Below, piece by piece: positions 2,328 to 21,321 of a stretch of 25,772 bases of DNA. Made by a program: the position numbers and the translations under genes. The stretch covers positions 1-25,772 of IMG/VR virus record IMGVR_UViG_3300044846_003597. One strand, 5' to 3'. This DNA comes from a virus. Under the pieces are notes generated by a model. The model ran no database searches. It was not told where the DNA came from and was given only the letters and a program-made list of their open reading frames with translations. The stretch's first letter is position 1. The number at the start of each line of letters is the position of its first letter.

Positions 2328-2328
2328 C

Positions 2329-3286: not shown

Positions 3287-4420
3287 TTAATCTTTTTTAT
3301 ACTCATCTAATAACTCATCATTTGTGAGTGTACCATATTTGTTTGATAATTCATCTGTATTAATTTCAGCGTACATTACATGTAATGTATTTTTTAACTC
3401 GTCCGCCAATGATAATGACTCAGAAATAACTCTAAGAATTTTATATGGGTCAGCATTAGAACCCGGTCTTCTATCCTCAAGATAGCCTTTCCATGTTTCA
3501 CCAACAGTTTTTGGTACTCTTATTGATGCTCCTCTATCTGATATACCCCATGAGAATTTATCAATAGATTGAGTTTCATATTTACCGGTTAATCTTAAAT
3601 GATTATCCGAACCATAGTTATTAATATGTTCTTTTGCTCTTGAATCGAATGTTCTAAAGATAGCAGTGAAATACTCTTCTCCACCTTCTTCTCTCATTTT
3701 CTTATTTGAAAAGTTTGTATGTAAACCTGAACCATTCCATTCTCCTGTTGTGATTGGTTTAGGGTGTAACTCAATTGCTACCGAATATCTTTCAGAAATT
3801 TTATTTAAGAAATAACGAGACATCCATAAATCGTCAGCACCTTTTAATTTACCTTTAGAAAATATTTGATATTCCCATTGACCCAACGCAACTTCTGCGT
3901 TCGTTCCTTCAACATTGATACCATAGTTTAAACACATATCTAAATGTTCATCACTAATAAGTCTACCAACAACATGACCACCAACACCACAATAATATTT
4001 TCCTTGTGGGTCAATCATCCCACCATTTTCAAAACCCAATACAGGTTGGTTATGTCCTGAACGAATAAAATATTCTTGTTCAAATCCAATCCATAAATCT
4101 TCATCTTCATTTCCTAAATGGAATCTTTGATTTGATTTGTGTGTTCCACCATTACCATCAAGTACCTCACACAATACATAGACTGTTGGGTAATCATCTT
4201 TACTGTTTTCGTTTTTATAAAATCTAACCGGTTTTAAATAACAATCGGAGAAGTTACCCTCCGCCTGATTTGTTGAACTTCCATCAAATCCCCAATTAGG
4301 AATTTCACTAATAACTAATCCAGTATTTTTTGGATTATAATCGACAACTTTAATTTTGCTTCTAAGATTTGGTTCGGGTAAACAACCATCTAACCAAATG
4401 TACTCAAATTTTATTTTCAT
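3287..4420 (-). CDS. glnII: Glutamine synthetase, type II (GSII)
   Basis: The enzyme joins ammonia to glutamate with ATP. All expected signatures are present in this 377-residue protein: the N-terminal beta-grasp region with WGFDGSST (43-50), metal/glutamate residues in FEQEYF (113-118), EGTNAEVALGQWEYQ (171-185), NGSGLHTNFS (229-238), LRLTGKYET (275-283), GASIRVP (297-303) and EDRRPGSNADPY (315-326). This is the eukaryote-like GSII form that Bacteroidota also carry. It extends about 35-40 residues past the last conserved block, apparently longer than the bacterial versions I recall. It is embedded among phage-type small genes, so it would be an auxiliary metabolic gene raising glutamine supply for nucleotide and amino-sugar synthesis. 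No catalytic residue seems missing. Confidence 0.93.
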   Translation of the reverse strand: MKIKFEYIWLDGCLPEPNLRSKIKVVDYNPKNTGLVISEIPNWGFDGSSTNQAEGNFSDCYLKPVRFYKNENSKDDYPTVYVLCEVLDGNGGTHKSNQRFHLGNEDEDLWIGFEQEYFIRSGHNQPVLGFENGGMIDPQGKYYCGVGGHVVGRLISDEHLDMCLNYGINVEGTNAEVALGQWEYQIFSKGKLKGADDLWMSRYFLNKISERYSVAIELHPKPITTGEWNGSGLHTNFSNKKMREEGGEEYFTAIFRTFDSRAKEHINNYGSDNHLRLTGKYETQSIDKFSWGISDRGASIRVPKTVGETWKGYLEDRRPGSNADPYKILRVISESLSLADELKNTLHVMYAEINTDELSNKYGTLTNDELLDEYKKD

Positions 4421-5040: not shown

Positions 5041-5406
5041 ATGTCGGTAATAATAAACAACAAACTATACTCAGCAGAATACTTATCCACAACTGAGGAA
5101 ATAACCAAAGGTATGATGGGTAGACCTTCATTAGAAGGTTGTATGGTTTTTAAAATGGGAATGGGTCACCATTCATTTTGGATGAAAAATTGTCTAATAC
5201 CGTTAGATATTGTATTTGTAAATAAAAATAGAATCAACGGTATTCATCTAAACTGTCCATTGGTTGACCGACACAGAATGACACCACCAAAATATACAGG
5301 TATAGGTGACCATGTTATAGAATTTCCAGCGGGTACCGCTAATGACTTTAAGGTTGGGGATAAGGTTAATATGTACTTAGGTACACCTAAGAACCCGGTT
5401 CAGTAA
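5041..5406 (+). CDS. DUF192 family protein
   Basis: This 121-residue protein is a complete DUF192 domain. It has TTEEITKGMMGRPSL (16-31), where the G-M-M/L-G-R turn is typical, then HHSFWMKNCLIPLDIVFV (43-60) with the hallmark F-W-M-K-N, and a C-terminal VIEFPAGTANDFKVGD. The domain is a small beta fold found in bacteria, archaea and many phages; its biochemical role is not settled. Many cellular members carry a signal peptide; this one does not, so it is probably cytoplasmic. It is read rightward alone, divergent from the leftward operon, and its last 20 bases overlap the end of the methyltransferase gene. Confidence 0.9.
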   Translation: MSVIINNKLYSAEYLSTTEEITKGMMGRPSLEGCMVFKMGMGHHSFWMKNCLIPLDIVFVNKNRINGIHLNCPLVDRHRMTPPKYTGIGDHVIEFPAGTANDFKVGDKVNMYLGTPKNPVQ

Positions 5407-6286
5407 ACAATTTTAATTGTTTTTTTTCATCTCTATGACCATAGATTCTACCCATTGCTATGTTTGTGTAGTTTTCTGATAGTTCGAAACCGATAAAGTT
5501 ATCTTTATTACCCAAAACTTCATTTGCTAAAAATGTTGTACCACTACCCGAAAACGGGTCCATGATAATATCATTTTTAAATGATAGGATTTTAATTGCT
5601 TTCATTGGGATATCCAAAGAATATGTTGCTTTAGTTAGTGATTTGGTATCGTTAAAGTACTTCCATTGACCAAAAACAAGTTCCATAAACTCATTTTTAT
5701 CTTTATCCTCGTAGATTCTTTTATTTTTTACTTTACCTTCCTCATCTTCAACTTGAGTTGTTGTGTAATCCCAAAAAGGAAGACCTTTAGAATTTTTCTT
5801 ATAGTCCTTTTTATATGCAAGAATTACACATTCTTTAGGGTTGTAAATGTAAGGTGAAGAAGATGACATCCAAGAACCCCAAGCCGTAGTTTTTGAACGG
5901 TGTGGAGAATCTTCCTCTAAATCTACAATACCAAAGAAACCGAAACCAATTTCTTTCATTATTTGCCAAAATTCGGATGCGATGAATACTCTACCTCCTC
6001 GTTCTCTAACATTAACTTCATATGGTATGTTTAATGCAACCCTACCATCATCCTTTAGTGTTCTATAAACTTCAGATAACCATATTTTACACCATTCAAA
6101 GTAATCATCCATAGGTTCGTTGTCAATGTGTACATCATATGAAATACCAACATTATACGGACAACTTGTTACCACTAAGTCCACACAACTGTCAGGTAGT
6201 TGTTTCATACCCTCAACACAATCAATATTGTGGATTTTATTCAACATTTTTTTAAATTCAGGTAAATTTTTTATTTTGTTTTCCAT
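5387..6286 (-). CDS. DNA methyltransferase, beta class (N4-cytosine or N6-adenine)
   Basis: In this 299-residue protein the catalytic motif comes first, DLVVTSCPYNVGISYD (TSCPY at 40-44), and the AdoMet-binding motif last, DPFSGSGTTFLA (243-251). That order defines the beta class. The catalytic tetrapeptide is S-C-P-Y rather than S-P-P-Y or D-P-P-Y. This leans toward N4-cytosine or SPPY-type N6-adenine enzymes, but the base cannot be decided. GFELSENYTNIAMGRI near the C-terminus is also typical. There is no restriction gene beside it, so it is a solitary methylase. Length is normal. The ATG at 6286 faces the GIY-YIG gene across an 88-base AT-rich gap, and its end overlaps DUF192 tail to tail. 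Confidence 0.88.
   Translation of the reverse strand: MENKIKNLPEFKKMLNKIHNIDCVEGMKQLPDSCVDLVVTSCPYNVGISYDVHIDNEPMDDYFEWCKIWLSEVYRTLKDDGRVALNIPYEVNVRERGGRVFIASEFWQIMKEIGFGFFGIVDLEEDSPHRSKTTAWGSWMSSSSPYIYNPKECVILAYKKDYKKNSKGLPFWDYTTTQVEDEEGKVKNKRIYEDKDKNEFMELVFGQWKYFNDTKSLTKATYSLDIPMKAIKILSFKNDIIMDPFSGSGTTFLANEVLGNKDNFIGFELSENYTNIAMGRIYGHRDEKKQLKLFTEPGS
5405..5427 (+). terminator. Probable rho-independent terminator after DUF192
   Basis: Right at the stop codon, AAACAA and TTGTTT form a 6-bp arm pair around TTTTAA, followed by a run of T to 5427. The stem holds a single G-C pair, so it is weak, but the T tract is long (8 T including the stem end). It lies inside the 3' end of the opposing methyltransferase gene. 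Confidence 0.4.
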
Positions 6287-7271: not shown

Positions 7272-7475
7272 ATGAGTAGCAACACAAATACTAAACTTAC
7301 TAGCGTAAAAATAATTGATAGAAATTACTATGAATTTAAGAAAGTAACTTTAGAAACGGATTTAACCTTACAGAAATTTGTAAATAGGTCAATAGATTTA
7401 TTTTTAAAAGATTCCGATTTTAAAGATAAGGTACAACAACACGAGACGGGTGGTGTTAAGAACTCAAAATATTAA
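7272..7475 (+). CDS. Ribbon-helix-helix-like DNA-binding protein (67 aa)
   Basis: The core LTSVKIIDRNYYEFKKVTLE then LTLQKFVNRSIDLFLKD has the layout of small RHH regulators: one beta strand (about 9-15), a helix, a turn and a second helix with FVNRSIDLF. Length (67) is typical. RHH proteins bind palindromic operators as dimers through the beta ribbon, and a 29-base near-palindrome lies just upstream. That suggests self-control and perhaps control of the downstream glycan operon, whose first gene starts 46 bases after this stop. The motif match is by eye; a different small helical protein is possible. Confidence 0.6.
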   Translation: MSSNTNTKLTSVKIIDRNYYEFKKVTLETDLTLQKFVNRSIDLFLKDSDFKDKVQQHETGGVKNSKY

Positions 7476-7521
7476 GTCATTAATATTTGTTATTGTCATT
7501 AATTTTTTATATATTTCAACA

Positions 7522-7878
7522 ATGTCATTGTCAAATTTCAAATTATTGTGTGGTCATAGATTACCTGAAGTCGAATTAAATATTCGAACAGTTGAGGTTC
7601 GTAATGGTGTAAGGAGAATTAGAGCTCAATGGACACCAGAAATGGTTCAGGATTTAAATGTAAACCATAATATTGACGCCGAAGCGGAATTAATGGCAAT
7701 ACTAAACCAAGAACTAACCGCAGAAATTGACAGGGAAGTAATTCGAAATATAATGAGACCAATTGTCGACGACTTAGTATCCGTTCAACCGATAGGTGTA
7801 CCTACCGGTCAACTTTTCTATATGGAACATGTTTATGATGGATACAACTTTAAAAAATTTAAATTATTAAAAGGATGA
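7522..7878 (+). CDS. gp23-like major capsid protein fragment (118 aa)
   Basis: I chose ATG at 7522 (MSLSNFKLLC); an upstream ATG at 7450 would overlap the previous gene. Residues 18-77 carry features I know from T4-type gp23 C-terminal regions: RRIRAQWTPEMVQDLNVNH, then DAEAELMAILNQELTAEIDR. Residues 79-101 resemble the gp23 N-terminal region (VSVQPIGVPTGQLFYM, compare VQPMTGPTG). In standard gp23 the QPMTGPTG segment precedes the DAEAEL segment; here the order is reversed and the protein is about a quarter of full length. It may be a rearranged capsid relic or a specialised small virion protein. The stop overlaps the ATG of the first glycosyltransferase (ATGA). The gp23 likeness is from memory. 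Confidence 0.6.
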   Translation: MSLSNFKLLCGHRLPEVELNIRTVEVRNGVRRIRAQWTPEMVQDLNVNHNIDAEAELMAILNQELTAEIDREVIRNIMRPIVDDLVSVQPIGVPTGQLFYMEHVYDGYNFKKFKLLKG

Positions 7879-9299
7879 TAACAATAGGATTTTCAACAAG
7901 AGAAGATAACCCCAAGTATGTGGACTATATACAGAAAACATCAATGTATAAAGATGTTCAAATTATACAAAAAATAAACAATGGTGAAAAATCACTATCT
8001 CAAGTTTATAATGAAATAATTAACGAATCAATATATGATATTGTAGTTTTGGTACATGATGATTTAGAATTTGAGACCAAGAATTGGGGTGAAAAAGTTT
8101 TAAAACATTTTAAAAGACAAACCGAATACGGTATACTTGGTTTAGCTGGAACAAAATATCTCCATGAGAGTGCACAATGGTGGTCAATTTCAAGTTCAAT
8201 GTATGGTATTGTAAACCATAAGAACGATGAAAAATCATGGACAAGTAGATACTCCAACGATATCGGAAGTAGAGTAGAAGAAACCGTAATTGTGGATGGT
8301 TTATTTATTGCATTAGATAAGACTATAATAAAACATAAGTTTGATGAGTCAATCGAAGGATTCCATTTTTATGATTTAGGTTTTTGTTTACCAAATTTTT
8401 TAGATGATGTTAAAGTAGGTGTAATGTTCGATGTTAGGGTCACACATTTATCTATTGGTGAGACCAATGAGAAGTGGGAAGAAAATAGAAAACAATTCGC
8501 TGAAAGGTATTCTGAAAAATTACCAATAGACATTAATTCAAAAGATGATTGTGACTCTTTTATTTTTATTCATGACCAAGAATTAGTATTATTATTTGAG
8601 GAAAGTAAAAAATTCAATAATTTATATTCATACCAATATGTTTTCTTAGGTGATAGACCAATTGATAAAATTGAACATTTAAGTAATATTATTGTTGCAA
8701 GAAATTATGAAGATAATATGGAACAGTATCCAAAATTCACATCATATACTGGATGGTATCTATTATGGAAAAACAATTTAATCAAAACAAAATTTGTAAA
8801 TTTATTTGAATATGATATTATATTAGATAAAAACTTTGCACAACATCAAATAAAATTCTTTGAAGATAGTAAACAAATTATTGGGTATGTTCCAACACCA
8901 ATGAATAACTATCACTTTATAATAAATAAAGACTGGAATGAGCATATCCTTGCATCAATTAAAAAACACTACAGAGTTGATAACTTATTAGGATTTTATT
9001 CTAATCTTGTAAATAAAAATCCTCAATCTATTTGGTCATCAACATCAAATACAACATTTAGAATTGATGTCTTTAATGATTATATGAAATGGTTTCAACC
9101 AATTGCCAATGACATTAAGGAAACAAAAACTTCAGGTCACGCACATGAAAGGTCGGTAACTTATTATTCAACTATAAACAATAAAAAAATTGGTATAACA
9201 AACGGTTTACTTCAACATGTCCAAATGGATTCACATAAAACGCAAGGTCATTATGTGGATGAAAAAGAACAAATAAAAAGATTAATAGAAAATAAGTAA
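7875..9299 (+). CDS. Two-domain glycosyltransferase-like protein
   Basis: This 474-residue protein is probably cytoplasmic. Residues 1-220 look like a GT2-like (Glyco_tranf_2_5 type) GT-A fold: ITIGFSTREDN at the start, VVLVHDDLEFETKNWG (DD as the metal/nucleotide motif), GILGLAGTKYLHE and a VDGLFIALDK segment. Residues about 225-474 form a second domain with YVFLGDRPIDKIEHL, YTGWYLLWKNN, a PTPMNNYHF stretch and GHAHERSVTYYS, which resembles unclassified polysaccharide transferases in viral gene clusters. It likely transfers one or two sugars. It begins the chain of coupled glycan genes, overlapping the gp23-like gene by 4 bases. Donor and acceptor unknown. Confidence 0.75.
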   Translation: MITIGFSTREDNPKYVDYIQKTSMYKDVQIIQKINNGEKSLSQVYNEIINESIYDIVVLVHDDLEFETKNWGEKVLKHFKRQTEYGILGLAGTKYLHESAQWWSISSSMYGIVNHKNDEKSWTSRYSNDIGSRVEETVIVDGLFIALDKTIIKHKFDESIEGFHFYDLGFCLPNFLDDVKVGVMFDVRVTHLSIGETNEKWEENRKQFAERYSEKLPIDINSKDDCDSFIFIHDQELVLLFEESKKFNNLYSYQYVFLGDRPIDKIEHLSNIIVARNYEDNMEQYPKFTSYTGWYLLWKNNLIKTKFVNLFEYDIILDKNFAQHQIKFFEDSKQIIGYVPTPMNNYHFIINKDWNEHILASIKKHYRVDNLLGFYSNLVNKNPQSIWSSTSNTTFRIDVFNDYMKWFQPIANDIKETKTSGHAHERSVTYYSTINNKKIGITNGLLQHVQMDSHKTQGHYVDEKEQIKRLIENK

Positions 9300-9301
9300 T
9301 A

Positions 9302-9967
9302 ATGTCAAAATATTTAAGTTTTAGTCTTTGGGGTGATAAACCATTGTATAATATTGGAGCAATAAGAAATGCTGAGATTTGGAAAACAATTTATCCAGAA
9401 TGGGATATGATTGTTTATTATGATAATTCAGTACCGAAAGAAACAATTGATTCATTAATATCCTTAAATGTAACAACTATTGATATGACAAACTCCGGAA
9501 CATATGGAATGTTTTGGAGATTTTTTGCGGTGTCATTACCAAATTGTGAACTTGCAATTTTTAGGGACACCGACTCAAGAATATCAATTAGGGAAAAGAT
9601 GGCAGTAGATGAATGGATTGAAAGTAAAAAATCGTTACATGTTATGAGAGACCATCCCGCACATGGAATACCTTATGGAAATAATTCATTAGGTATATTG
9701 GGTGGAATGTGGGGAATTAAAAATGGTACAATACCGTTAATAGATATGATGCAAAATTTCTTTAGTAGTGGTAAGGTTATGGTATATGGTGATGACCAAA
9801 GATTCTTAAAATCCGTCTATTCCATTTTAGAAAATGATAGATGTACCCATGATGATTTCTTTGAAAAAAAACCATTTCCAATTAAAAGAGAAAATGGTAG
9901 GTTTATTGGTGAAAGAATAGATATTAACGAACAACCATTAACCGACGATTATAAAATATTACTATGA
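9302..9967 (+). CDS. Glycosyltransferase-like protein (GT-A type)
   Basis: This 221-residue protein opens YLSFSLWGDKPLYNIGAIRN and has a clear DxD-type motif in LAIFRDTDSRISIREK, followed by VDEWIESKKSLHVMRDHPAH and GGMWGIKNG, then YGDDQRFL. I recall this pattern from uncharacterised viral and bacterial proteins in surface-polysaccharide clusters that are predicted GT-A enzymes. D/E metal binding by RDTDS is expected. It starts 2 bases after the previous stop and overlaps the next gene by 4 bases (ATGA). No signal or membrane segment is present. The specific family number is not assigned. Confidence 0.75.
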   Translation: MSKYLSFSLWGDKPLYNIGAIRNAEIWKTIYPEWDMIVYYDNSVPKETIDSLISLNVTTIDMTNSGTYGMFWRFFAVSLPNCELAIFRDTDSRISIREKMAVDEWIESKKSLHVMRDHPAHGIPYGNNSLGILGGMWGIKNGTIPLIDMMQNFFSSGKVMVYGDDQRFLKSVYSILENDRCTHDDFFEKKPFPIKRENGRFIGERIDINEQPLTDDYKILL

Positions 9968-10692
9968 GTTTAGAATATGTTATTGTAGGTTCAGATACCA
10001 ATCCAATGTATTTAGAATTTTGGGATGTGGTATCCAAAGTTTGGAGAGAAAAGTTTAATGTTATTCCTGTTCTTGGTTTAATATGTAATGAAGATTCTGA
10101 AATTTATGAAGACAAATATGGGTTAGTAAAAAAATTTAAACAAGTTAAGGGTGTTGATACCGCACTACAATCTCAAATTGTTAGACTTTATCTACCTAAA
10201 TTTTTAGACGGTAAATGTTTAATATCCGATATTGATATGATACCATTATCACCAAAATATTTTCAAAAAAATCTATCAAAAGTAAACAATGAGAATGTTG
10301 TTATTTATTCATCCGATAATTTAGGATGTATAAAAAATAATATGTACCCTATGTGCTACATATCGGCACATTCAAACACATTTAAAAATGTTCTATCTTT
10401 AGATATTAGTTGGGATGAATTTGTTTATTCTCAAAATATAAGAAAAGAAGGGTGGTACACCGACCAAAAATTTATATTTGAAAGAATTAATGAGTATAAC
10501 CAAGAAAAAAATAATTGTATTTTTTTGAATAGAGGGTGGTTATCATCAGGTTCAGCGGAAAAACGTATAGACCGAATTAAATGGGAATATATTCCAGAAA
10601 AAGTTAAAGAAGATTACTATATTGATTGTCATTCATTAAGACCATATAGTCAACATAAAGAAGAAATAGATAAATTAATAAAATTATTATAG
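9964..10692 (+). CDS. Glycosyltransferase-like protein with DxD motif
   Basis: In this 242-residue protein the key segment is QSQIVRLYLPKFLDGKCLIS followed by DIDMIPLSPKYF, where D-I-D is a DxD metal-binding motif placed after a strand as in GT-A sugar transferases. Further support is the CYISAHSNTFKNVL and WYTDQKFIFERI stretch. The product looks like a soluble enzyme of normal size for small viral transferases. It is translationally coupled to both neighbours: ATGA at its start, and its TAG stop shares a base with the next GTG start. Substrate unknown. Confidence 0.75.
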   Translation: MSLEYVIVGSDTNPMYLEFWDVVSKVWREKFNVIPVLGLICNEDSEIYEDKYGLVKKFKQVKGVDTALQSQIVRLYLPKFLDGKCLISDIDMIPLSPKYFQKNLSKVNNENVVIYSSDNLGCIKNNMYPMCYISAHSNTFKNVLSLDISWDEFVYSQNIRKEGWYTDQKFIFERINEYNQEKNNCIFLNRGWLSSGSAEKRIDRIKWEYIPEKVKEDYYIDCHSLRPYSQHKEEIDKLIKLL

Positions 10693-11366
10693 TGAATATT
10701 CTTATTTTAGTTTTATCATGCAACGATAATGGGATTTATAGTAAATTTTTTGAAACTCAAAAAAATACATGGGATTCTATTAATGTAGAAGGAATAGAAA
10801 CATTTTATTTTTTTGGTGACCACGATAAAGATGAAATTGTTGAAAACAAAATATACATAAATTTAAAGGAGACCACTAAAAAAGAATCTGACGGTAGTTT
10901 ATCTATAACAAATTCCAGTTTAAAAACTTTAAAATCTTTTGAAATGATTAAAAATATGGATTTTGATTATGTTTTTAGGACAAACGCTAGTTCATATGTT
11001 GATAAAAAATTATTAATGGATTTTATCAATAATAAACCAAAAACCAAATATTATTCAGGGTTTATTGGTAACCATGGAAAAATAACATTTGCATCGGGAA
11101 GTGGTTTCTTTCTAAGTAAAGATTTAATAAAACTATTAATTGAAAATAAAAATAGATGGGACTACTCTTTAATTGATGATGTATCAATAGCGTCTTTGTT
11201 AAAAGAATTTGGAGTGTCGCCTGAGAATAACCCTCGTTACGATGTTTGCAATGAAAATATTCCGTTAGATTATTTTCATTATAGAATAAAAACAAGAAAC
11301 AGAAATGATGATTGTAGATTAATGGAATTAATACATAATAAGAAAAATGAACTTTATAACCGGTAA
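10692..11366 (+). CDS. Galactosyltransferase-like (GT31-like) glycosyltransferase
   Basis: This 224-residue protein begins at GTG 10692 (TAGTG overlap with the previous stop). Features resemble GT31/beta-1,3 transferases: NILILVLSCNDNGIYSKFFE at the start, FDYVFRTNASSYVDKKLL in place of the usual D-D-D region, FASGSGFFLSKDLIKLL (the acceptor-side S/A-G-G/S-G loop) and LIDDVSIASLLKEFG. The metal motif is atypical (RTNAS), so activity or metal need may differ from classic members. It overlaps the following exostosin-like gene by 20 bases. Soluble; no signal peptide seen. Confidence 0.65.
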   Translation: MNILILVLSCNDNGIYSKFFETQKNTWDSINVEGIETFYFFGDHDKDEIVENKIYINLKETTKKESDGSLSITNSSLKTLKSFEMIKNMDFDYVFRTNASSYVDKKLLMDFINNKPKTKYYSGFIGNHGKITFASGSGFFLSKDLIKLLIENKNRWDYSLIDDVSIASLLKEFGVSPENNPRYDVCNENIPLDYFHYRIKTRNRNDDCRLMELIHNKKNELYNR

Positions 11367-12111
11367 CAAATTTAAAGATATTTCTGATTACATATTGGAT
11401 GAATCTGGGTTTAGGAAAACCGGTATAATAAATGATATACCTATTTTTTTTATTAAAACGGATTTCATTAATCTATTTTTTAATAGTCACAAACCAAATT
11501 TTAAATATAAAATTATAACACACAATAGTGATTTTCCAATATCTGATAATATTGCAAAATATATTGATGATGAGAACTTAATTAATTGGTATGGTCAGAA
11601 TATTAACTATTATCACCCAAAATTAATATCAATACCAATTGGTATTGCCAACCAAAGATGGGTTCATGGTGATGAAAATAAACTAAATGAAGTGATAGAT
11701 TTAAACATAAAAAAAGAAAATCTAATATATTGTAATTTTAATATTGATACCAATTTGAATGAAAGAACTAAATGTATTAATTCAATTCATAGGAATAATT
11801 TAAATCTAACAAGTGGAAAAGATTTCCATAATTATTTACAAGAATTATCGGGTTCATATTTTTGTTTATCACCAAACGGTAATGGGGTTGACTGTCATAA
11901 AACATGGGAATCGTTATATCTAAAAACAATACCAATCGTTACTGAATCAATAAATGTAAACTATTTTAAAGAATTACCTATACATATAATTAAAGATTGG
12001 GATTCATTCGATTCAAATGAAATAACAACTGAGTTGTATTTTGAATTGATGTCAAAATATGATAAAGATAAATTAAACATAGAACATTACTATAAAAAAA
12101 TTAAACAATAA
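11347..12111 (+). CDS. Exostosin-like (GT47-like) glycosyltransferase
   Basis: This 254-residue protein has its most telling segment at about 175-200: YFCLSPNGNGVDCHKTWESL, then YLKTIPIV. It matches the exostosin/GT47 donor-binding pattern in which Pro-x-G-x-G-x-D and a downstream Glu (W-E-x-L) hold the nucleotide sugar. ISIPIGIANQRWVHGD earlier is also usual for these GT-B-type viral proteins. The start ATG lies within the last codons of the previous gene. It probably adds one sugar in the glycan made by the cluster. Acceptor unknown; family call is by motif. Confidence 0.65.
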   Translation: MNFITGNKFKDISDYILDESGFRKTGIINDIPIFFIKTDFINLFFNSHKPNFKYKIITHNSDFPISDNIAKYIDDENLINWYGQNINYYHPKLISIPIGIANQRWVHGDENKLNEVIDLNIKKENLIYCNFNIDTNLNERTKCINSIHRNNLNLTSGKDFHNYLQELSGSYFCLSPNGNGVDCHKTWESLYLKTIPIVTESINVNYFKELPIHIIKDWDSFDSNEITTELYFELMSKYDKDKLNIEHYYKKIKQ

Positions 12112-12114
12112 AAT

Positions 12115-12738
12115 ATGACAAAAATAGGTATTTCAATGGGATGGAATTGTGGTCCCGCACAGATAGGTGTTGATAAGAAAATAAGAGGAACAAAATCCGA
12201 GGGTTATGAAACTTGTCCATTTGATGAAATGATAACAAACTTACCCGGTATTATTGAATGTATTCGTGATGACTTTAAAGATTTTATGAATGAAGAACAT
12301 TTAAGTTTAATGCAGTCACCTGAAAATGTTGGTGGTATTGTTAAAGGTGAAACTTTAGTTTATAATACAAAATATAATTTCATATTTAACCATGAATCTC
12401 CTGGTCATGCCAATCTTTTTGTTACTCAATCATGGTCGGGAGGTATAAATCATTATGTTGATAATAATTACTCATTATTAAAAGAAAGATACAATCAAAG
12501 AGTTGATAGTTTTAGAAAATATATTAAACAAGCTCAGGAAGGTCATGAAATTAATTTTATTTTATCCAGATTCAATAAAAATGTAGATGAATTACATAGA
12601 GTTCTAATAGAGAAGTATCCTAATTTAAAATATGAAATATTTGATTTAACACCAAAAGAACCTCGTGAATTAGTTTATAATCATCACATGTTAATGGGTT
12701 TAAGTGAAGATATAGTAAAAAATGAAGTAAACCAATGA
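12115..12738 (+). CDS. DUF1796 family, putative papain-like cysteine peptidase
   Basis: In this 207-residue protein the N-terminus KIGISMGWNCGPAQIGVD has the family's Asn-Cys (C12), and a following ETCPFDEMITNLPGIIECI matches the R-x-S-x-P-F-D segment typical of DUF1796. A later FNHESPGHANLF provides candidate His residues. The family has been described as a predicted papain-like cysteine peptidase, but members often sit in glycan clusters of viruses and bacteria, as here, and the true reaction is unknown. It starts 3 bases after the GT47-like gene and overlaps the next gene by 4 bases (ATGA). Confidence 0.7.
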   Translation: MTKIGISMGWNCGPAQIGVDKKIRGTKSEGYETCPFDEMITNLPGIIECIRDDFKDFMNEEHLSLMQSPENVGGIVKGETLVYNTKYNFIFNHESPGHANLFVTQSWSGGINHYVDNNYSLLKERYNQRVDSFRKYIKQAQEGHEINFILSRFNKNVDELHRVLIEKYPNLKYEIFDLTPKEPRELVYNHHMLMGLSEDIVKNEVNQ

Positions 12739-13406
12739 TAGTAATAACAACATATAATGGTAAATTTCATTTAGAAAGATTACTAAATGAATTAAATAAT
12801 TTAGATTTATTGGGTCATAAAATTTTAGTTGTTGATTCCGGAACAAACGATTCTGAATCTATTAATTATTTAAATTACCTAAAAGAAAATAACTCAAATT
12901 TTAATTATGAACTTTTATTAGATAAGACTCCAAATCCAAATTACGATAGTGGTGTTATTATTCATGTAATGAAAAACTACAATGAAGAATATTATATTTT
13001 TATTCATGATTCATTCTCAATTAAAAACAATGAATGTTTGGTTGAACTTAATAGACTAATGGATGGTGAAAATTCAGTCGTACCATTTCTAACATTTGGC
13101 GGTAATCAATATGATAATAAAAATCAAATTAATTTTTGTTCAACGCATTATGGTACGGGTAATAATAAATGCGGAATTTTTGCTTCAATATTTGGGATAT
13201 CAAATAAATCTATTTCAAAAATAGATTTAAATTCATTGGTTGGTCCATCAAATAAAGATGAGTCCAGAGCAATGGAAAGATGTTGGTCGGTTATATTTGA
13301 GAAAAGTGGGTTGAATATTATCCCTTTTGAGGGTGAGTTTGATTACACAAAAATAATAAATGATGAGTACGTATACTTTAGAAAATATTTCGGGGATAGA
13401 CAATAA
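12735..13406 (+). CDS. Glycosyltransferase family 2-like protein
   Basis: This 223-residue protein opens with MIVITTYNGKFHLERLLNEL and KILVVDSGTND, the first strand and nucleotide-binding loop of GT2 enzymes. A central YYIFIHDSFSIKNN gives a H-D-S motif where the DxD usually sits, as in other cluster members. GIFASIFGISNKSISKI and an acidic ESRAMERCWS stretch fall where the acceptor domain would be. It is short for GT2 and lacks membrane segments. It is coupled by ATGA to the DUF1796 gene and followed 1 base later by the first nucleotidyltransferase. Confidence 0.65.
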   Translation: MIVITTYNGKFHLERLLNELNNLDLLGHKILVVDSGTNDSESINYLNYLKENNSNFNYELLLDKTPNPNYDSGVIIHVMKNYNEEYYIFIHDSFSIKNNECLVELNRLMDGENSVVPFLTFGGNQYDNKNQINFCSTHYGTGNNKCGIFASIFGISNKSISKIDLNSLVGPSNKDESRAMERCWSVIFEKSGLNIIPFEGEFDYTKIINDEYVYFRKYFGDRQ

Positions 13407-13407
13407 A

Positions 13408-14118
13408 ATGAATGATAATCTTAATATAGTTATTTCAATTGCCGGTCCTTCTGATGTTATTAACGTAAAAGGTGTACCAACTTTAAAACATTTAATTAAG
13501 ATAAATAATGAACCGTTTTTAAGTGTGTTCCTTAAAAATCTCAATATACATGGTGATTATATTTTTTTAATTCAAAAGGAATACAACGATTTATTTGACT
13601 TAAAAAAAGAAATTAAGTACATAGTACCAAAATGTAAGATAATTGAGCTGGATGGGTTTAAAAATGGGTCAGCACTAACTCTTTTTGAATTAAAAGATAC
13701 CATATCTTTAGATAAACCTGTTTTATTTGTTAATTCTGATTTTACAATGGACTGGGATTCAAATTTATTTATGGACTTTATCAAAAATTCAAAATGTGAT
13801 AGTTGTTTGGTTACATACAAATCAGATTCATTGAAACATTCATACTGTATAGTCAAGGATGATATCATAACGGAGGTTGCGGAAAAAAAAATTATAAGTG
13901 ACGTAGCAATTGTCGGTGTTTATTATTGGTCAAACGGTAATATACTTATCAACTCTATTGAGAGTATGGTTAAAAAACAAATAAACCATAATGGGATATA
14001 CTACATCTCACTATCATTTAATGAGTTAGTAAAAGAAAACTATAAAATAACAACCTACCCCATAGATTCAATTAAAATTTTAGATTTTGAGAGTGATATA
14101 CCTCTTTTTAACCGTTAA
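13408..14118 (+). CDS. Sugar nucleotidyltransferase-like protein, degenerate active loop
   Basis: I chose ATG at 13408, directly after the previous stop; an earlier in-frame start at 13360 would overlap the previous gene by 47 bases. The 236 residues have the Rossmann-like layout of sugar-1-phosphate nucleotidyltransferases: IVISIAGPSDVIN, PTLKHLIKINNEPFLSVFL, GSAL (87-90) and VLFVNSDFTMDWD with the metal Asp at 111. The usual G-x-G-x-R-F loop is replaced by GPSDVI, so activity is doubtful. Its C-terminal block EKKIISDVAIVGVYYW is nearly shared with the intact enzyme at 16496, marking a paralogous pair. Confidence 0.7.
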   Translation: MNDNLNIVISIAGPSDVINVKGVPTLKHLIKINNEPFLSVFLKNLNIHGDYIFLIQKEYNDLFDLKKEIKYIVPKCKIIELDGFKNGSALTLFELKDTISLDKPVLFVNSDFTMDWDSNLFMDFIKNSKCDSCLVTYKSDSLKHSYCIVKDDIITEVAEKKIISDVAIVGVYYWSNGNILINSIESMVKKQINHNGIYYISLSFNELVKENYKITTYPIDSIKILDFESDIPLFNR

Positions 14119-14157
14119 ACCATTTACAAGTTTAAAAAAAACCAATATAATTTAATT

Positions 14158-14796
14158 ATGAAAGACACAGATTTACATTTAAGATTATTAAATCTTTTGT
14201 ACACGTACAACGAAGAACATGTGGGTAGTTGCTTTACATGTATCGATATCATGGATGATATCTTTAAAAACAAAAAAGAAGACGATATCTTTATCAATTC
14301 TAATGGACATTCAGCCTACGCCTTGTATGTTATATTAGAAAAATATCATAATGTTGACGCTGATTACTTAGCAAAAAAACATGGTGGTCATCCTAATTTT
14401 GATGAGACTGATAAAATCTACTGTTCAACAGGTAGTTTGGGTTCAGGTTTACCCATTGCAGTTGGTAGAGCAATTGGAAATCCAAATAGAAAAGTATATG
14501 TGACAATTTCAGATGGTGAATGTGCGGAAGGTAGTGTTTGGGAATCTTTAAGATTCATTCACGACCATAATATTAAAAATATTGAGGTTCATGTTAATGC
14601 AAATGGTTGGGCTTGTTATGACCCGATTGATGTGGATTTATTGGAAAAAAGAATCAAATCTTTTTTACCTACCGCGATTTTTCATAGAACATCAGTTGAG
14701 CAATTTCCGTTCTTAACGGGTTTAAGTGCTCACTATATGAAATTAACTGAAGAACAGTATAACGAAGGTGTTAAAATTTTAAAAAATGAGTGTTAG
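14158..14796 (+). CDS. Transketolase-like N-terminal (PP domain) subunit
   Basis: In this 212-residue protein, the thiamine-diphosphate PP domain is recognisable: HVGSCFTCIDIM (21-32), INSNGHSAYALY (GH at 50-51), GGHPNFDETDKIYCSTGSLG (76-95), and the diphosphate/Mg motif ISDGECAEGSVWES (SDGE at 118-121) closing at VNANGWACYD (Asn 147/149). The first G of G-D-G is Ser. Split transketolases usually have about 270-residue N subunits, so this one is trimmed. It must pair with the next gene's product, whose ATG overlaps its last codons by 11 bases. Expected reaction: transfer of a two-carbon ketol unit or a related TPP reaction. Preceded by a 39-base gap. Confidence 0.85.
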   Translation: MKDTDLHLRLLNLLYTYNEEHVGSCFTCIDIMDDIFKNKKEDDIFINSNGHSAYALYVILEKYHNVDADYLAKKHGGHPNFDETDKIYCSTGSLGSGLPIAVGRAIGNPNRKVYVTISDGECAEGSVWESLRFIHDHNIKNIEVHVNANGWACYDPIDVDLLEKRIKSFLPTAIFHRTSVEQFPFLTGLSAHYMKLTEEQYNEGVKILKNEC

Positions 14797-15268
14797 AAAA
14801 GCTTTTGTTCCTTTATTATTTGATTTAATGAAGGAAAATGAATCAGTCTACTTCGTAACTGGAGATTTAGGCTACGGTCACTTTGACCATTTCAGAACTG
14901 AGTTCCCTGATAGATTTATCAACGTGGGAGCCGCAGAACAGTTATTAGTCGGTGTTGGTATTGGTTTAGCATTAGAGGGTAAAATCCCCGTGTGTTATTC
15001 GATGACTCCTTTTATCCTATATCGACCATTTGAGTTTATTAGAAACTATGTTGATTATGAATCAATACCCGTTAAATTAGTGGGTAGTGGAAGAGATAAA
15101 GATTACGATTGGTTAGGTTGGTCACATTGGGCAACAGATGATGTTGAACACACTAGTGGTTTTAAAAATATATCAAAATATTGGCCAAAAGATGCTGATG
15201 AAATGAAAGAAAAATTCAATGAGATTTTATTGAATAATAAACCGGTTTATTTAAATTTATCACGATGA
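14786..15268 (+). CDS. Transketolase-like PYR-domain subunit, no C-terminal domain
   Basis: This 160-residue protein holds VRKAFVPLLFDLM, VYFVTGDLGYGHF, FINVGAAEQLLVGVGIGLAL (catalytic Glu51) and FILYRPFEFIRN (76-87), all standard for the pyrimidine-binding domain. GWSHWATDDVEHTSG replaces the usual G-x-T-H-Q-x-x-E-D segment. It ends at KPVYLNLSR, exactly where the PYR domain ends, so the transketolase C-terminal domain is absent. Together with the preceding subunit it would form a minimal alpha2beta2 TPP enzyme. It is coupled to both neighbours (11-base and 4-base overlaps). Alternative: a TPP decarboxylase-type enzyme rather than a true transketolase. Confidence 0.85.
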   Translation: MSVRKAFVPLLFDLMKENESVYFVTGDLGYGHFDHFRTEFPDRFINVGAAEQLLVGVGIGLALEGKIPVCYSMTPFILYRPFEFIRNYVDYESIPVKLVGSGRDKDYDWLGWSHWATDDVEHTSGFKNISKYWPKDADEMKEKFNEILLNNKPVYLNLSR

Positions 15269-15822
15269 GTAATTTAGGTAAAATAAAACTTTTAATTTTG
15301 GACATTGATGGTGTTTTAACCGATGGTACTAAAGTATACAACGAAAAACATGAAGTAATATCTAAGAGATTTCTTTGTAAGGATTTCACCGCAATTAAAA
15401 GGATAGTAGCTTCGGGTATTAAAGTTATTATGTTATCTGGTGACAACTTTAATAGAACAATGGCAGAAAAAAGAAATATTGATTTCTTTTGTACCAGAGA
15501 TAAAAATTTAAGTCTTGATAAATCATTATTTATAGATGAGTTTTACCAACGATACGGTGTGTCAGTTGATGAGATGGCGTTTATTGGTGATGATTATTTT
15601 GATTTATCAATGTTTAAAAAAATAACATACACATTTTGTCCGTCAGATTCTCCAAAAATAATTAAGGACTCATCATTGTATATTTTAAAATCAAAAGGTG
15701 GTGAAGGTACTATTGTTGAGTTGTATGATTTTTTAGAATCTAATGAATTTCTAATTGAATCGGATGAACAAACAGTAATTGATTTAGATAGTAAAGAAAT
15801 TACAAGTAAAGAAATGAAATAA
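15265..15822 (+). CDS. KdsC-like HAD phosphatase
   Basis: This 185-residue protein has HAD motif I LLILDIDGVLTDGT (Asp13 nucleophile, Asp15), motif II VIMLSGD (Ser59), a Lys in LDKSLFIDEF and motif IV FIGDDYFDLSMF (GDD 108-110). The capless C0 architecture and DGVLTDG match KdsC, the tetrameric KDO-8-phosphate phosphatase, and relatives in 9-carbon sugar synthesis. A C-terminal GGEGTIVELYDFL is also KdsC-like, followed by about 30 acidic, poorly conserved-looking residues. It likely removes phosphate from an intermediate made by the transketolase pair. ATGA overlap with the previous gene. Confidence 0.85.
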   Translation: MSNLGKIKLLILDIDGVLTDGTKVYNEKHEVISKRFLCKDFTAIKRIVASGIKVIMLSGDNFNRTMAEKRNIDFFCTRDKNLSLDKSLFIDEFYQRYGVSVDEMAFIGDDYFDLSMFKKITYTFCPSDSPKIIKDSSLYILKSKGGEGTIVELYDFLESNEFLIESDEQTVIDLDSKEITSKEMK

Positions 15823-15824
15823 TA

Positions 15825-16499
15825 ATGAAGATATCATTGTATGGTCACTTAATAACTGATAAGATTTTTATTGGATTTAAAACCCATGAAAGTTTAGGTG
15901 GAATTGCAAATGTGTGGGACTCATTAATTAAACTCAATAAAAAAAATGAGGTTATAATGAAACCATGTTCAATTGGTGAGGCTATCGTTTTAGTTAATGT
16001 GGAAAAGAACACAAGAGTAGGTAGAGCAAATTTTAATTTATTAACCGATGAACCTAAAATAGTAAAATCGGATTGGCACCATATTGCATATCTTAACCAA
16101 TTAGAAGACACTTCATTTATTAATGACATAACAACCGGTATAATATCAGCTGACGTATCTAAAGAATCTCCTGAAACAATAGTGGAACACCTTAAAGATA
16201 TTGATTTTCTTTTTATTTCAAAAGAAGACCTATTTAATGATATTATGGAACTATCTAAAATAACGAAGGGTTGGATTATTAGTCATGACCCAAATGGTAG
16301 TACCTCAACAAATGGAATAGAAACCATAAATTACGAAATACCTGAACATTTAAAATTAAAAAATATAGATGTATTGGGTGCCGGTGATATGTTTGCTGGA
16401 AGTTTTATCAATAATATCTTACAAGGAAAGACAATTGAGGATTCAATTATTCAATCACATAAAGATACGTTTGAGTTATTAAAAATTAAAAATTCTTGA
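15825..16499 (+). CDS. PfkB-family sugar kinase, compact
   Basis: This 224-residue protein shows the ribokinase fold: LYGHLITDKIFIG at the start, LGGIANVWDSLIKL (GG 25-26, substrate side) and IDVLGAGDMFAGSFINN near the C-terminus, where GAGD (185-188) forms the anion hole and Asp188 is the catalytic base. It is shorter than typical PfkB enzymes (about 300), with the lid region reduced. It phosphorylates a sugar with ATP; by analogy with HldE/HddA-type pathways it could supply the sugar 1-phosphate for the nucleotidyltransferase encoded next. The stop TGA overlaps a TTG start of that gene. Confidence 0.82.
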   Translation: MKISLYGHLITDKIFIGFKTHESLGGIANVWDSLIKLNKKNEVIMKPCSIGEAIVLVNVEKNTRVGRANFNLLTDEPKIVKSDWHHIAYLNQLEDTSFINDITTGIISADVSKESPETIVEHLKDIDFLFISKEDLFNDIMELSKITKGWIISHDPNGSTSTNGIETINYEIPEHLKLKNIDVLGAGDMFAGSFINNILQGKTIEDSIIQSHKDTFELLKIKNS

Positions 16500-17212
16500 A
16501 ACCCACCTTATTAATACCCATGGCCGGTTTAGGTAGAAGATTCTCCACCAACGGATACACAATACCAAAACAAATGGTTGACATCAATGGTAAACCAATG
16601 ATAGAAGTTAGTTTAGATTGTATAAAATTAGATGACTTTAAAAAAGTTTTTATAATTAGAAAAGAACATATTGCAATTCACAATATAGATTCATTTTTAA
16701 GAGACAAATTTGGTAATGATATTGAAATTGTTATTGCAGAAACCGATACTGAAGGGACAGTTTGTACATGTTTATTAGCTGAAGAGTTTTTAAATAATGA
16801 TTCACCGTTGGTTATTACGACCTTGGATGTTTACTTTGAACCTATCTTCAGTATGGATTTGATAAATCCTTCTGTTGACGGTACAATATTGGTATTTAAA
16901 TCAGATAATCCAAGTTACAGTTATTCTAAAATTAATAATGAAGGTTTTGTAATTGAAACGGCAGAAAAAAAAGTTATTAGTGATTTATCATCAATAGGGT
17001 TATACTATTTTAAATCATCTAAAGACTTTTTAGATTACTCAAAGAAAATGGTAAACGAAAACATTAGAACAAATAATGAATTTTATGTTTGCCCGTTATA
17101 TAATTTACTTATTAATGACGGTAAAAAAATTAACACTCTCCTTTTTGATAAGTGTAATTCAATTGGTACTCCTAATGAAATAAATGAATTTATATTAGAA
17201 AAATACAAATAG
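16496..17212 (+). CDS. Sugar-1-phosphate nucleotidyltransferase
   Basis: The protein starts at TTG 16496 (TTGA overlap with the previous stop); the first ATG at 16520 would remove the first beta strand, so TTG is preferred. The 238 residues have TLLIPMAGLGRRFSTNG (G-x-G-x-R-F, 11-16), IPKQMVDINGKPMIEVSL (Lys25), TEGTVCTCLLA (85-95) and VITTLDVYFEP with metal Asp111. This is an apparently intact NTP:sugar-1-phosphate transferase. The base used cannot be told. The block EKKVISDLSSIGLYYF shows it is a paralogue of the protein at 13408. It would activate the product of the kinase and transketolase module. Confidence 0.88.
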   Translation: MKPTLLIPMAGLGRRFSTNGYTIPKQMVDINGKPMIEVSLDCIKLDDFKKVFIIRKEHIAIHNIDSFLRDKFGNDIEIVIAETDTEGTVCTCLLAEEFLNNDSPLVITTLDVYFEPIFSMDLINPSVDGTILVFKSDNPSYSYSKINNEGFVIETAEKKVISDLSSIGLYYFKSSKDFLDYSKKMVNENIRTNNEFYVCPLYNLLINDGKKINTLLFDKCNSIGTPNEINEFILEKYK

Positions 17213-17214
17213 TA

Positions 17215-17985
17215 ATGGTCACTTTAAAATATGACGGTAGGTTAGGTAATAATTTAATACAGTACATCGCGTCACTTTTTTTTGCAAAAAAATTTAATTT
17301 AAATTTTAATTTAGAACCCAATTCATATTCAGGTAATTGGGATTTTTTATTAAAGAATAGACGGGTAGATGGGTCAACCGGAAACCAAACAATCGAGGTT
17401 AACGATAATAATTTTATTAATTTACTTAATAGAGAAAAAATTGACCCAAACCACTACCATTTTAATGGATACTTTCAAAATAAAGAATTTTTACAAACTT
17501 ACGAAAGTGAAATAAAATCTTTATTAAGTATAAACTACAATGATACTGGTAGGGATTCTGTTTTTGTTCATTATAGAATTGGTGATGTAATAAACGATAG
17601 GAGAATGTTACCTTTAGAATATTACATTGAGGCACTAGATTCAATAACATTTAAAAATGGTTTTATATCTTCGGATTCAATTGACCATGTTTTCTGTAAA
17701 CAATTAATATCAAAATACAATTTAACACCAATCCATGGATTATCACCAATAGACACTTTGAATTTTGGTAAAAATTTTAATAACTTAGTTCTATCTGAGG
17801 GAACATTTTCGTGGTGGATTGGATATTTGAGTAACGCCGAAAATATAATTTGTAATAAAAGAAATTATTTATGGCACGGTGATATATTTTTAGATAGATG
17901 GAAAAAACTACAATGGGATTACGATGAATCAGTAATCTATGATAGTAGAAAATTAAAAGAATATAAAATAAAAAAAATCACATGA
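17215..17985 (+). CDS. GT11-like (fucosyltransferase-like) glycosyltransferase
   Basis: This 256-residue protein has the three GT11 signatures: GRLGNNLIQYIASLFFA (8-24, compare G-G-L-G-N-Q-x-F-Q-Y), NGYFQNKEFL (84-93) and VFVHYRIGDVIND (117-129, the HxRxGD nucleotide-binding motif). VLSEGTFSWWIGYLS (192-206) is the donor-side S-x-F-S-W-W block. Family members are alpha-1,2-fucosyltransferases using GDP-fucose, but phage relatives may use other GDP sugars. Soluble, with no signal peptide. It follows the nucleotidyltransferase by 2 bases and overlaps the last gene by 4 bases (ATGA). Confidence 0.8.
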   Translation: MVTLKYDGRLGNNLIQYIASLFFAKKFNLNFNLEPNSYSGNWDFLLKNRRVDGSTGNQTIEVNDNNFINLLNREKIDPNHYHFNGYFQNKEFLQTYESEIKSLLSINYNDTGRDSVFVHYRIGDVINDRRMLPLEYYIEALDSITFKNGFISSDSIDHVFCKQLISKYNLTPIHGLSPIDTLNFGKNFNNLVLSEGTFSWWIGYLSNAENIICNKRNYLWHGDIFLDRWKKLQWDYDESVIYDSRKLKEYKIKKIT

Positions 17986-18419
17986 TTCTAATATCGCACA
18001 GGGGAAATATTAATGGTAGGATACCAGAAAAAGAAAATCATCCACACTACATTGAAACAACATTAGTTTCTGGTTACGATGTTGAGGTGGATGTTTGGTA
18101 TGTGGACGGTAAACTTATGTTAGGACATGATAAACCACAATATGAGGTTAACCTTATATGGTTTACACATAGGATTAATAAACTTTGGGTACATTGTAAA
18201 AATATGGAGTCTTTAATTTATTTTAGGGACTGCGGATATGATGTTAATTATTTTTGGCACCAAACAGATGATGTTATTATAACATCTAAAGGTTTTTTAT
18301 GGGCTCACCCTGGTAAACAACCAATAAACAATAGTATTGCTGTTCTACCTGAATTATATAACGATGACACTAAAGAATGTATCGGTGTTTGTAGTGATTT
18401 TATATTAAACCATCTTTAA
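17982..18419 (+). CDS. GDPD-like phosphodiesterase-type protein, short
   Basis: In this 145-residue protein the opening ILISHRGNINGRIPEKENH then GYDVEVDVWYVDGKLMLGHD places H-R-G, the E-V-D pair and G-H-D like the active-site strands of glycerophosphodiester phosphodiesterases (HRG...E-x-D...H). The usual 240-residue barrel is shortened. LWVHCKNMESLIYF and NYFWHQTDDVIITSKGFLWA continue the pattern seen in short relatives I recall from viral and marine glycan clusters. A role in cleaving or forming a phosphodiester on the glycan is inferred only. It is the last gene of the operon, 4 bases before a terminator. Confidence 0.7.
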   Translation: MILISHRGNINGRIPEKENHPHYIETTLVSGYDVEVDVWYVDGKLMLGHDKPQYEVNLIWFTHRINKLWVHCKNMESLIYFRDCGYDVNYFWHQTDDVIITSKGFLWAHPGKQPINNSIAVLPELYNDDTKECIGVCSDFILNHL

Positions 18420-20436: not shown

Positions 20437-21321
20437 TTAATAATTCATTATTAGTAATTCTATACCTTCGTTTTGTGTTCCATCTTTTTTTGCTGCCGCA
20501 GCTTTCTTAAATGATTTTCTTTCCCATCTATATGTTGGGTCACCAAACATTAGTATTTGGTTATTCTTACCTAATGGTACTTGTGGAAACCATTCCGTTA
20601 ATTGAGGAAATTCATAATATGATAAACTAAATTTACCTTTTATTTTTTTAAGTGTATTTGCCAGTCTTATATGTGTTTCCCTACTGAATATATGGTTAGA
20701 ATAGTAATTCTCGGTCATATAATACGGAGGGTCCATATAGAAATATGTTGTTGGTGAATCATACTTCTCAACAACATCTTGAAAATCTAAATTCTCAACA
20801 AATGTTATCTTTTCTAAATGTGCTCTATACTCAGGATGTTTTAATTTATCCATAAAAATTAAAACTTTACAACGATACTTACCCTTATAATCAGTATAGT
20901 TTGATGTCTCAGGTTTTGAACCTGAGAATACTTGGGTTAAAACATAAACATACTTGGCAGCAATATCAAAGTTAGGTTCATCCCCAATTACCAAATCATC
21001 ATTAAAGACTTCTTTTTGGTATGTTTTAAACATTTCAGTATATTCAGGTGGTGTTTCCTCAACTCCCACTTGTTGACATGGATATTTTGCCAATTCTTCC
21101 CACATCCTATCACATTGTAATGAACATTTAAATAAATTAGCATTAAGTCGATTGTAGTCATTATAAACGACAGTTTTTAAATTGGGGTAACTTTTTAAGT
21201 CCATGTTAAAAAAGACCCAAAACATACCCGAGAACCCCTCCACGTAAGTTTCTATGTCTTTAGGTATGAACGGTTCAATCCAATTACCTATTCTAGCTTT
21301 TCCACCGATATATGATATCAT
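20437..21321 (-). CDS. D12-class DNA adenine methyltransferase, divergent
   Basis: In this 294-residue protein the alpha-class order is clear: MISYIGGKARIGNW (YIGGK 4-8), AdoMet loop YVEGFSGMFWVF (EGFSG 28-32, in place of the usual P-F-G/A-G-G) and catalytic FYMDPPYYMTEN (DPPY 197-200). A long insert between motifs (about 80-150) and a C-terminal GNNQILMFGDPTYRW with an Ala/Lys-rich patch set it apart from the methylase at 1527. A solitary enzyme for N6-adenine methylation of phage DNA is likely. It heads the leftward operon with the ATPase and redox genes, divergent from the gene at 21453. Confidence 0.87.
   Translation of the reverse strand: MISYIGGKARIGNWIEPFIPKDIETYVEGFSGMFWVFFNMDLKSYPNLKTVVYNDYNRLNANLFKCSLQCDRMWEELAKYPCQQVGVEETPPEYTEMFKTYQKEVFNDDLVIGDEPNFDIAAKYVYVLTQVFSGSKPETSNYTDYKGKYRCKVLIFMDKLKHPEYRAHLEKITFVENLDFQDVVEKYDSPTTYFYMDPPYYMTENYYSNHIFSRETHIRLANTLKKIKGKFSLSYYEFPQLTEWFPQVPLGKNNQILMFGDPTYRWERKSFKKAAAAKKDGTQNEGIELLIMNY

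Follow-up and report, generated by a model that had tools for sequence, protein, structure and literature searches.

A minimal split transketolase beside a phosphatase-kinase-nucleotidyltransferase trio in a virus contig, and its possible part in making an activated sugar

Heptose pathways start from a sugar phosphate of the pentose-phosphate pathway, and one of their kinases, HldE, belongs to the PfkB family. The split-gene transketolase of Carboxydothermus hydrogenoformans works as an alpha2beta2 assembly; neither chain is active on its own, and thiamine pyrophosphate (TPP) is bound between the chains (PMC7661550). Phages also carry genes for activated sugars: RB69 has activated-pentose genes used for DNA modification with arabinosyl-hydroxymethylcytosine (PMC6024577), and Thanatos has a UDP-xylose pyrophosphorylase (PMC12838424). 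Here we analyse the 25,772-nucleotide (nt) IMG/VR virus record IMGVR_UViG_3300044846_003597, positions 1-25,772 (the window), in which a minimal split transketolase is encoded together with a KdsC-like phosphatase, a compact PfkB kinase and a sugar-1-phosphate nucleotidyltransferase (14158-17212; Table 1). Split transketolases, RpiB, PfkB kinases, KdsC-like phosphatases and nucleotidyltransferases are each already known, and heptose pathways are similar in logic. In open-licence PubMed Central papers we found no description of this gene set, of a transketolase pair without the transketolase C-terminal (TKC) domain, or of its spread among viruses. Among such papers, searches on transketolase in O-antigen and cyanophage lipopolysaccharide clusters, on viral transketolases as auxiliary metabolic genes, and on phage RpiB, PfkB and KdsC sets turned up no account of the set either.

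The minimal transketolase and its gene set

The diphosphate-binding (PP) and pyrimidine-binding (PYR) subunits are encoded by separate, overlapping genes. Among solved structures, profile searches place them closest to the two chains of the C. hydrogenoformans enzyme (PP with the N chain of PDB 6yak, E 7e-19; PYR with the C chain of PDB 6yaj, E 1.9e-20). The conserved TPP-site residues are spread over both chains, and we compared them, in E. coli TktA numbering, across 41 minimal sequences from viruses and cells, the window included. The equivalents of H26, H66, H100, G114, D155, G156, E160, N185 and H261 in PP and of D381, E411, F437 and H473 in PYR are invariant. An earlier note on this DNA had expected a TPP site at the subunit interface; the residues tested for TPP binding, metal binding and catalysis are intact across both subunits in 41 of 41 sequences. 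Positions for substrate phosphate and acceptor are altered: H461 is replaced by Gly in all 41, the S385 position falls in a gap, and D469 is Leu in the window and in half of the minimal sequences, while R358 is kept and R520 is either Arg or Lys. PF02780 (Transketolase_C) was found neither in the window, in agreement with the same note, nor in the records of eight relatives (up to 269 kb), and was found in 14 of 14 control genomes. The pair is the smallest two-chain transketolase design known to us.

The note had listed six consecutive genes that become tightly packed from the transketolase subunits on. Open reading frame (ORF) calls place the genes and their spacing as claimed: the PP and PYR genes share 11 nt and the PYR and phosphatase genes 4; a gap of 2 nt follows before the kinase gene, which in turn runs 4 nt into the nucleotidyltransferase gene, whereas 39 nt separate the first nucleotidyltransferase gene from the PP gene. 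Its family assignments also agree with Pfam, PHROG and NCBIfam profile searches, and the Transketolase_N, Transket_pyr, Hydrolase, PfkB and NTP_transferase matches are all above the Pfam cut-offs. Judged from the sequences, the five-gene set is not due to chance, because PP and PYR are 66-84% identical to their counterparts in the viral loci L002 and L003 and nonsynonymous divergence (dN) is well below synonymous divergence (dS, near saturation) for all five genes. L003 has the same genes in another order.

The phosphatase matches TIGR01670 with 88.7 bits, under the cut-off of 106.95, and is for this reason KdsC-like rather than a KdsC; it also matches KdsC structures in profile searches (E about 1e-21), and its DxD, GD and GDD motifs are invariant. 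The N-terminal half of the kinase has no strong sequence match. Its AlphaFold model (mean predicted local distance difference test score 95.4) matches ketohexokinase and ribokinase along its whole length, with 214-217 of its 224 residues aligned (Z about 22), so the protein is, as modelled, a complete, compact kinase of the ribokinase fold. Kinase residues D12, G25 and N29 are invariant, and the GAGD motif, kept in the window, is nearly so. The intact nucleotidyltransferase belongs to PHROG 3980 (E 3e-70) and matches a nucleoside-diphosphate-sugar pyrophosphorylase (PDB 4evw, E 2.7e-23).

The first nucleotidyltransferase is homologous to the intact one (24% identity, E 2e-17). The GxGxR...PK signature, kept in the protein of 16496-17212, is gone from that of 13408-14118, a loss the earlier note had already seen. 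Its membership in the set did not hold up: no copy stands beside the set in the closest relatives (L002, L003, L009, L011 and L019). By its sequence and context this gene is a degenerate paralogue outside the conserved set.

Association of transketolase and RpiB with the trio

A kinase scan of viral contigs yielded 80 loci. The phosphatase gene lies 5' of the kinase gene within the same locus in 80/80, and the nucleotidyltransferase gene lies 3' of it in 77/80, the contig ending there in the other three; the phosphatase, kinase and nucleotidyltransferase (hereafter the trio) therefore travel together, as had been claimed. Among 694 sampled genomes of two bacterial phyla (the second-phylum search being without a positive control) we found no compact kinase save on one virus-like contig, which is binned into a Flavobacteriaceae metagenome-assembled genome (MAG).

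In most trio loci transketolase is absent and the nucleotidyltransferase instead bears a C-terminal RpiB-family isomerase domain; fewer loci lack both. The fused arrangement, phosphatase-kinase-(nucleotidyltransferase+RpiB), is present in the isolated cyanophages Bellamy and SynMITS9220M01. The RpiB domain of Bellamy gp206 passes the cut-off of TIGR00689 (RpiB/LacA/LacB; 105.2 bits versus 88.3) and stays under that of the RpiB equivalog TIGR01120 (103.4 versus 138.65). Both gp206 (L005:8001-9158) and its SynMITS9220M01 counterpart (L004:8001-9158) are labelled 'phosphatase' and are really nucleotidyltransferase+RpiB fusions. Phages B23 and S-CAM9 (L006:5344-6717, L007:5344-6729) have members of this nucleotidyltransferase family joined to a beta-phosphoglucomutase-like HAD domain; a PfkB fusion, considered for the N-terminal part of these long proteins, was rejected on that ground. 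Proteins of about 524 residues with two nucleotidyltransferase domains in tandem occur at L005:10226-11800 and L112:6628-8202. Trio loci with neither RpiB nor transketolase are L010, L012-L018 and L020-L023; the two examined for it, L012 and L023, have a small cupin-like gene between the nucleotidyltransferase gene and that of a protein resembling GDPD enzymes.

We also scanned IMG/VR with a PYR profile, which matched at least 330 viral contigs, and examined the best 80. A PP partner accompanies PYR in these loci (one contig is cut). When the loci are ranked by identity to the window, the trio is present in 24 of the first 25 (at least 59% identical), the contig of the 25th being cut, and in 0/55 of those below 59%. 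Fourteen of the 24 also have RpiB and ten do not. The window clade thus stands beside the kinase, phosphatase and nucleotidyltransferase genes, and its homologues are not always found apart from them. In quick trees made without bootstrap, in which closely related contigs reduce independence, the trio-linked pairs form one clade of the PP+PYR tree (27 rows, SH-like approximate likelihood ratio test 100) with a single change of context. The tree of the three trio proteins (73 dereplicated rows) has 37 rows with RpiB only; the 11 rows with both RpiB and transketolase cluster together (support 100). A further clade of 22 rows has lost the fused RpiB; its members have transketolase, except for ten nested rows that have neither, as if transketolase had been lost again there. 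The pair lies 5' of the trio in some viruses and 3' in others, mostly directly adjacent. Since trio lineages follow the supply genes and the pair is found on either side, transketolase and RpiB look, from these sequences, as if they were alternative or additional suppliers of one trio pathway. Gene-neighbourhood scans, a check that the earlier note had proposed, thus find the gene set in many viruses, but transketolase is not its obligate core.

Isolated phages (INPHARED) gave only distant matches to the minimal pair, at most 38% identical and mostly normal-length split transketolases in bacterial-looking records. Bacterial split transketolases of ordinary length are encoded in L103 and in several 'phage' records (OR849068, OR847014 and others); one such record is a whole Salmonella contig, and the rest may be host contamination.

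Readings of the pathway

We tentatively favour reading 14158-17212 as a phage operon that makes one nucleotide-activated sugar, its transketolase supplying a sugar phosphate, and rate this somewhat short of an even chance. Together PP and PYR would form an active TPP enzyme, like the two chains of the split transketolase of known structure, and would draw on the host pentose-phosphate pool, passing a two-carbon ketol unit from one of its sugar phosphates to another. The PfkB kinase would phosphorylate the anomeric (or 1-) position of the resulting sugar phosphate, whose terminal phosphate the KdsC-like phosphatase would take off, and the nucleotidyltransferase would couple the sugar 1-phosphate to a nucleotide. 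Nearby phage glycosyltransferases may then attach the sugar to an acceptor (host surface glycan, virion or DNA). In related viruses the RpiB domain fused to the nucleotidyltransferase would do or share the supply step; by analogy with the canonical enzymes, ribose 5-phosphate would be the metabolite common to RpiB and transketolase. Dephosphorylation before 1-phosphorylation, the order first proposed, has no advantage here, an HldE-type order with the kinase first fitting equally well.

Several observations weigh against a supply role. Some viruses hold both RpiB and transketolase and some neither, so neither seems to be essential for the trio. Canonical substrates are not assured, to judge from the aligned residues, because specificity-setting active-site positions (H461 to Gly, S385 in a gap, D469 to Leu) differ from those of canonical transketolase. 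The enzyme's sister clade is linked to genes for NDP-sugar (nucleoside-diphosphate-sugar) oxidoreductases. In the 55 viral loci without the trio, a short-chain dehydrogenase/reductase (SDR) gene is close by and nearly always adjacent to the pair (group f3 in 33/55, f8 in 20/55); 29 of these loci carry an RmlB-like 4,6-dehydratase gene and 18 have one resembling RfbH (NCBIfam on representatives).

This sister clade suggests another reading, which we consider possible but doubtful: the minimal transketolase would add a two-carbon (glycoloyl) unit to the ketone of an NDP-keto-sugar, and the trio would make the same or another NDP-sugar. The changed D469 and H461 positions are consistent with such branching, as are the cellular relatives. 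Minimal pairs with 47-54% identity are also found in Patescibacteria, Omnitrophota and an Elusimicrobium; those of Patescibacteria and Omnitrophota (L104-L105, L108-L109, L111, L114-L115, L118-L127) usually lie near an SDR gene and often near a methyltransferase gene, and 12 of 14 cellular genomes with a minimal pair hold another, larger transketolase as well. In a micrarchaeote (L129) glucose-1-phosphate cytidylyltransferase, SDR, PP, PYR and CDP-glucose 4,6-dehydratase genes stand in a row, the split transketolase being longer there. That dehydratase was rejected as a genome-wide partner of the cellular minimal pair; the link appears local, since only 3 of 23 genomes exceeded the cut-off. 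There is also biochemical precedent. Rif15 of rifamycin synthesis is a two-subunit transketolase that transfers a C2 unit to a ketone (PMC6002545). In yersiniose synthesis a CDP-4-keto-sugar gains two carbons through the TPP enzyme YerE. For 13 Streptomyces split-gene transketolases, none characterised, ketosugar branching has been predicted, and uncharacterised split-gene transketolases have been proposed to perform it in the miharamycin and amipurimycin pathways (PMC12247030).

In the window clade itself the evidence points away from branching. The partner SDRs are found in 0/25 of its loci, Pfam, PHROG and NCBIfam scans recognised no oxidoreductase or dehydratase among the sugar genes of the window, and neither a 4,6-dehydratase nor an SDR gene lies near its transketolase pair. 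Enrichment of RmlB-like dehydratase genes with transketolase among trio loci was considered and rejected (7/23 loci with transketolase and trio versus 9/49 with the trio only, dereplicated, P-value 0.36, not significant), and these genes are absent from transketolase loci without RpiB. Because the trio is the constant partner, the SDRs are missing and trio loci with transketolase show no significant excess of RmlB-like genes, we prefer the supply reading for this clade. The earlier note's assignment of the carbon-skeleton step to transketolase therefore stands as one reading among others, the sister clade beside 4,6-dehydratase, RfbH and SDR genes suggesting NDP-keto-sugar branching.

A broader proposal, which we regard as rather unlikely, is that viral TKC-less transketolases have diversified and form activated sugars that carry a two-carbon branch or are undescribed in some other way, one clade acting with NDP-4-keto-sugar genes and the other, that of the window, with the trio, where transketolase and RpiB would be exchangeable. 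If true, it would mean a nucleotide-sugar pathway so far undescribed in any organism. The gene set itself shows transketolase chemistry within viral sugar-making sets and not only in host carbon metabolism. Keto-sugar branching by transketolases, an unproven idea, could be tested on the two clades, and the phage sugar can be sought in cultured systems because the RpiB form of the trio also occurs in isolated cyanophages.

Other genes of the pentose-phosphate pathway, talC among them, are known from cyanophages (PMC2984593), and S-CAM9 has a transaldolase. The minimal pair might likewise be an auxiliary metabolic transketolase that steers host pentose-phosphate flux to ribose 5-phosphate for nucleotide synthesis, with the sugar genes as neighbours by location alone. 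We judge such a role improbable because the context is fixed: the trio-linked pair is one clade strictly beside the trio. Its substrate-site residues are altered, and cellular members occur in sugar clusters, mostly in genomes with another transketolase. That the genes are inactive or hitch-hiking, kept by chance in a gene-transfer region that is indeed plastic and contains a degenerate nucleotidyltransferase gene, is very improbable given dN far below dS in all five genes, catalytic residues invariant in 41 sequences and compact packing.

Some sister-clade pairs have separate HldE-kinase-like and HldE-nucleotidyltransferase-like genes and a small HAD gene nearby (L112:4833-5976, L203, L198). 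Viral-looking contigs with minimal pairs are also filed in Flavobacteriaceae, Maricaulis, Planctomycetaceae and archaeal MAGs (L128, accession PBVB01000112.1; L106, L107, L112, L113, L116 and L117). They are probably misbinned, because their pairs group with virus contigs on the tree.

Flanking genes and comparison with described systems

Table 1. Sugar-related genes of the window, with the evidence for each assignment
Feature	Position	Strand	Evidence
Glycosyltransferase-like run upstream: Glyco_tranf_2_5, two unassigned, Galactosyl_T, GT47-like, DUF1796, weak GT2	7875..13406	+	Pfam (GT47-like and second GT2 matches under cut-offs)
Degenerate nucleotidyltransferase paralogue	13408..14118 (longest ORF from 13360)	+	PHROG 3980 E 8e-35
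PP subunit of minimal split transketolase, 212 residues	14158..14796	+	Pfam Transketolase_N E 1.2e-6
PYR subunit, 160 residues; chain stops where PYR domain stops	14786..15268	+	Pfam Transket_pyr E 1.6e-15
KdsC-like C0-type HAD phosphatase, 185 residues	15265..15822	+	Pfam Hydrolase E 2.6e-8; TIGR01670 E 3.6e-25
Compact PfkB/ribokinase-fold sugar kinase, 224 residues	15825..16499	+	Pfam PfkB E 1.6e-7; model
Sugar-1-phosphate nucleotidyltransferase, 238 residues, TTG start, PHROG 3980 family	16496..17212	+	Pfam NTP_transferase E 6.2e-9
Family-11-like glycosyltransferase, immediately 3' of set	17215..17985	+	Pfam Glyco_transf_11 E 4.2e-6
Short GDPD-like protein, 145 residues, PHROG 34507	17982..18419	+	Invariant residues; weak Foldseek match

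Glycosyltransferase-like genes flank the set on both sides, and the family-11-like enzyme is a possible user of the predicted sugar. The GDPD-like gene lies inside the loci of most trio viruses; H6, E18, E35, D37 and H49 of its product are invariant, and a high-confidence model matches GDPD structures weakly (Foldseek E 0.011). The protein is common in phage sugar loci and clearly shorter than known GDPD enzymes. Elsewhere in the window a 142-residue ORF (7450-7878), 3' of a GIY-YIG gene, matches the T4-type major capsid protein gp23 in two segments that are out of order (profile positions 129-195, then 20-48) and thus looks like a partial or rearranged copy of gp23 rather than an ordinary capsid gene. 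The window also encodes a glutamine synthetase-like protein of 377 residues (3287-4420), an N6/N4 methyltransferase (5387-6286) and two D12-class adenine methyltransferases (1527-3135 and 20437-21321), one of whose genes adjoins a LAGLIDADG endonuclease gene. An Rfam scan of the window gave no match.

Like the C. hydrogenoformans split transketolase (6yaj/6yak), the window enzyme has PP and PYR on chains of their own and the same catalytic residues. That enzyme, however, has a TKC domain and chains of 309+341 residues, whereas the window pair has 212+160 and none; the window pair is also viral, differs in its substrate-site residues and is tied to sugar-activation genes. The set resembles the ADP- and GDP-heptose pathways (GmhA, HldE or HddA, GmhB, HddC) in that supply, kinase, HAD phosphatase and nucleotidyltransferase would act in series. 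It differs from them in its KdsC-like rather than GmhB-like phosphatase, in its compact kinase and in having transketolase or RpiB in place of GmhA; neither GmhA nor GmhB was seen among the sugar genes of the window, itself a fragment, in the Pfam, PHROG and NCBIfam scans.

Yersiniose-type and miharamycin-type branching would share with the window enzyme a TPP-dependent two-carbon addition in sugar biosynthesis, and the sister clade has the same types of partner. YerE, in contrast, is a pyruvate-using enzyme of the decarboxylase type, and the window-type operon has neither dehydratase nor SDR. RB69 and Thanatos have phage genes for an activated pentose, among them one for a nucleotidyltransferase-like protein, and RB69 also encodes a protein that resembles sugar-phosphate isomerases; as described, they are set apart by using an SIS-type protein and the bifunctional ORF53_52c, and no TPP enzyme. 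Whereas the sets of Bellamy and SynMITS9220M01 have an RpiB domain fused to the nucleotidyltransferase and no transketolase, their phosphatase, kinase and nucleotidyltransferase are of the same families as in the window, in the same order and 37-48% identical.

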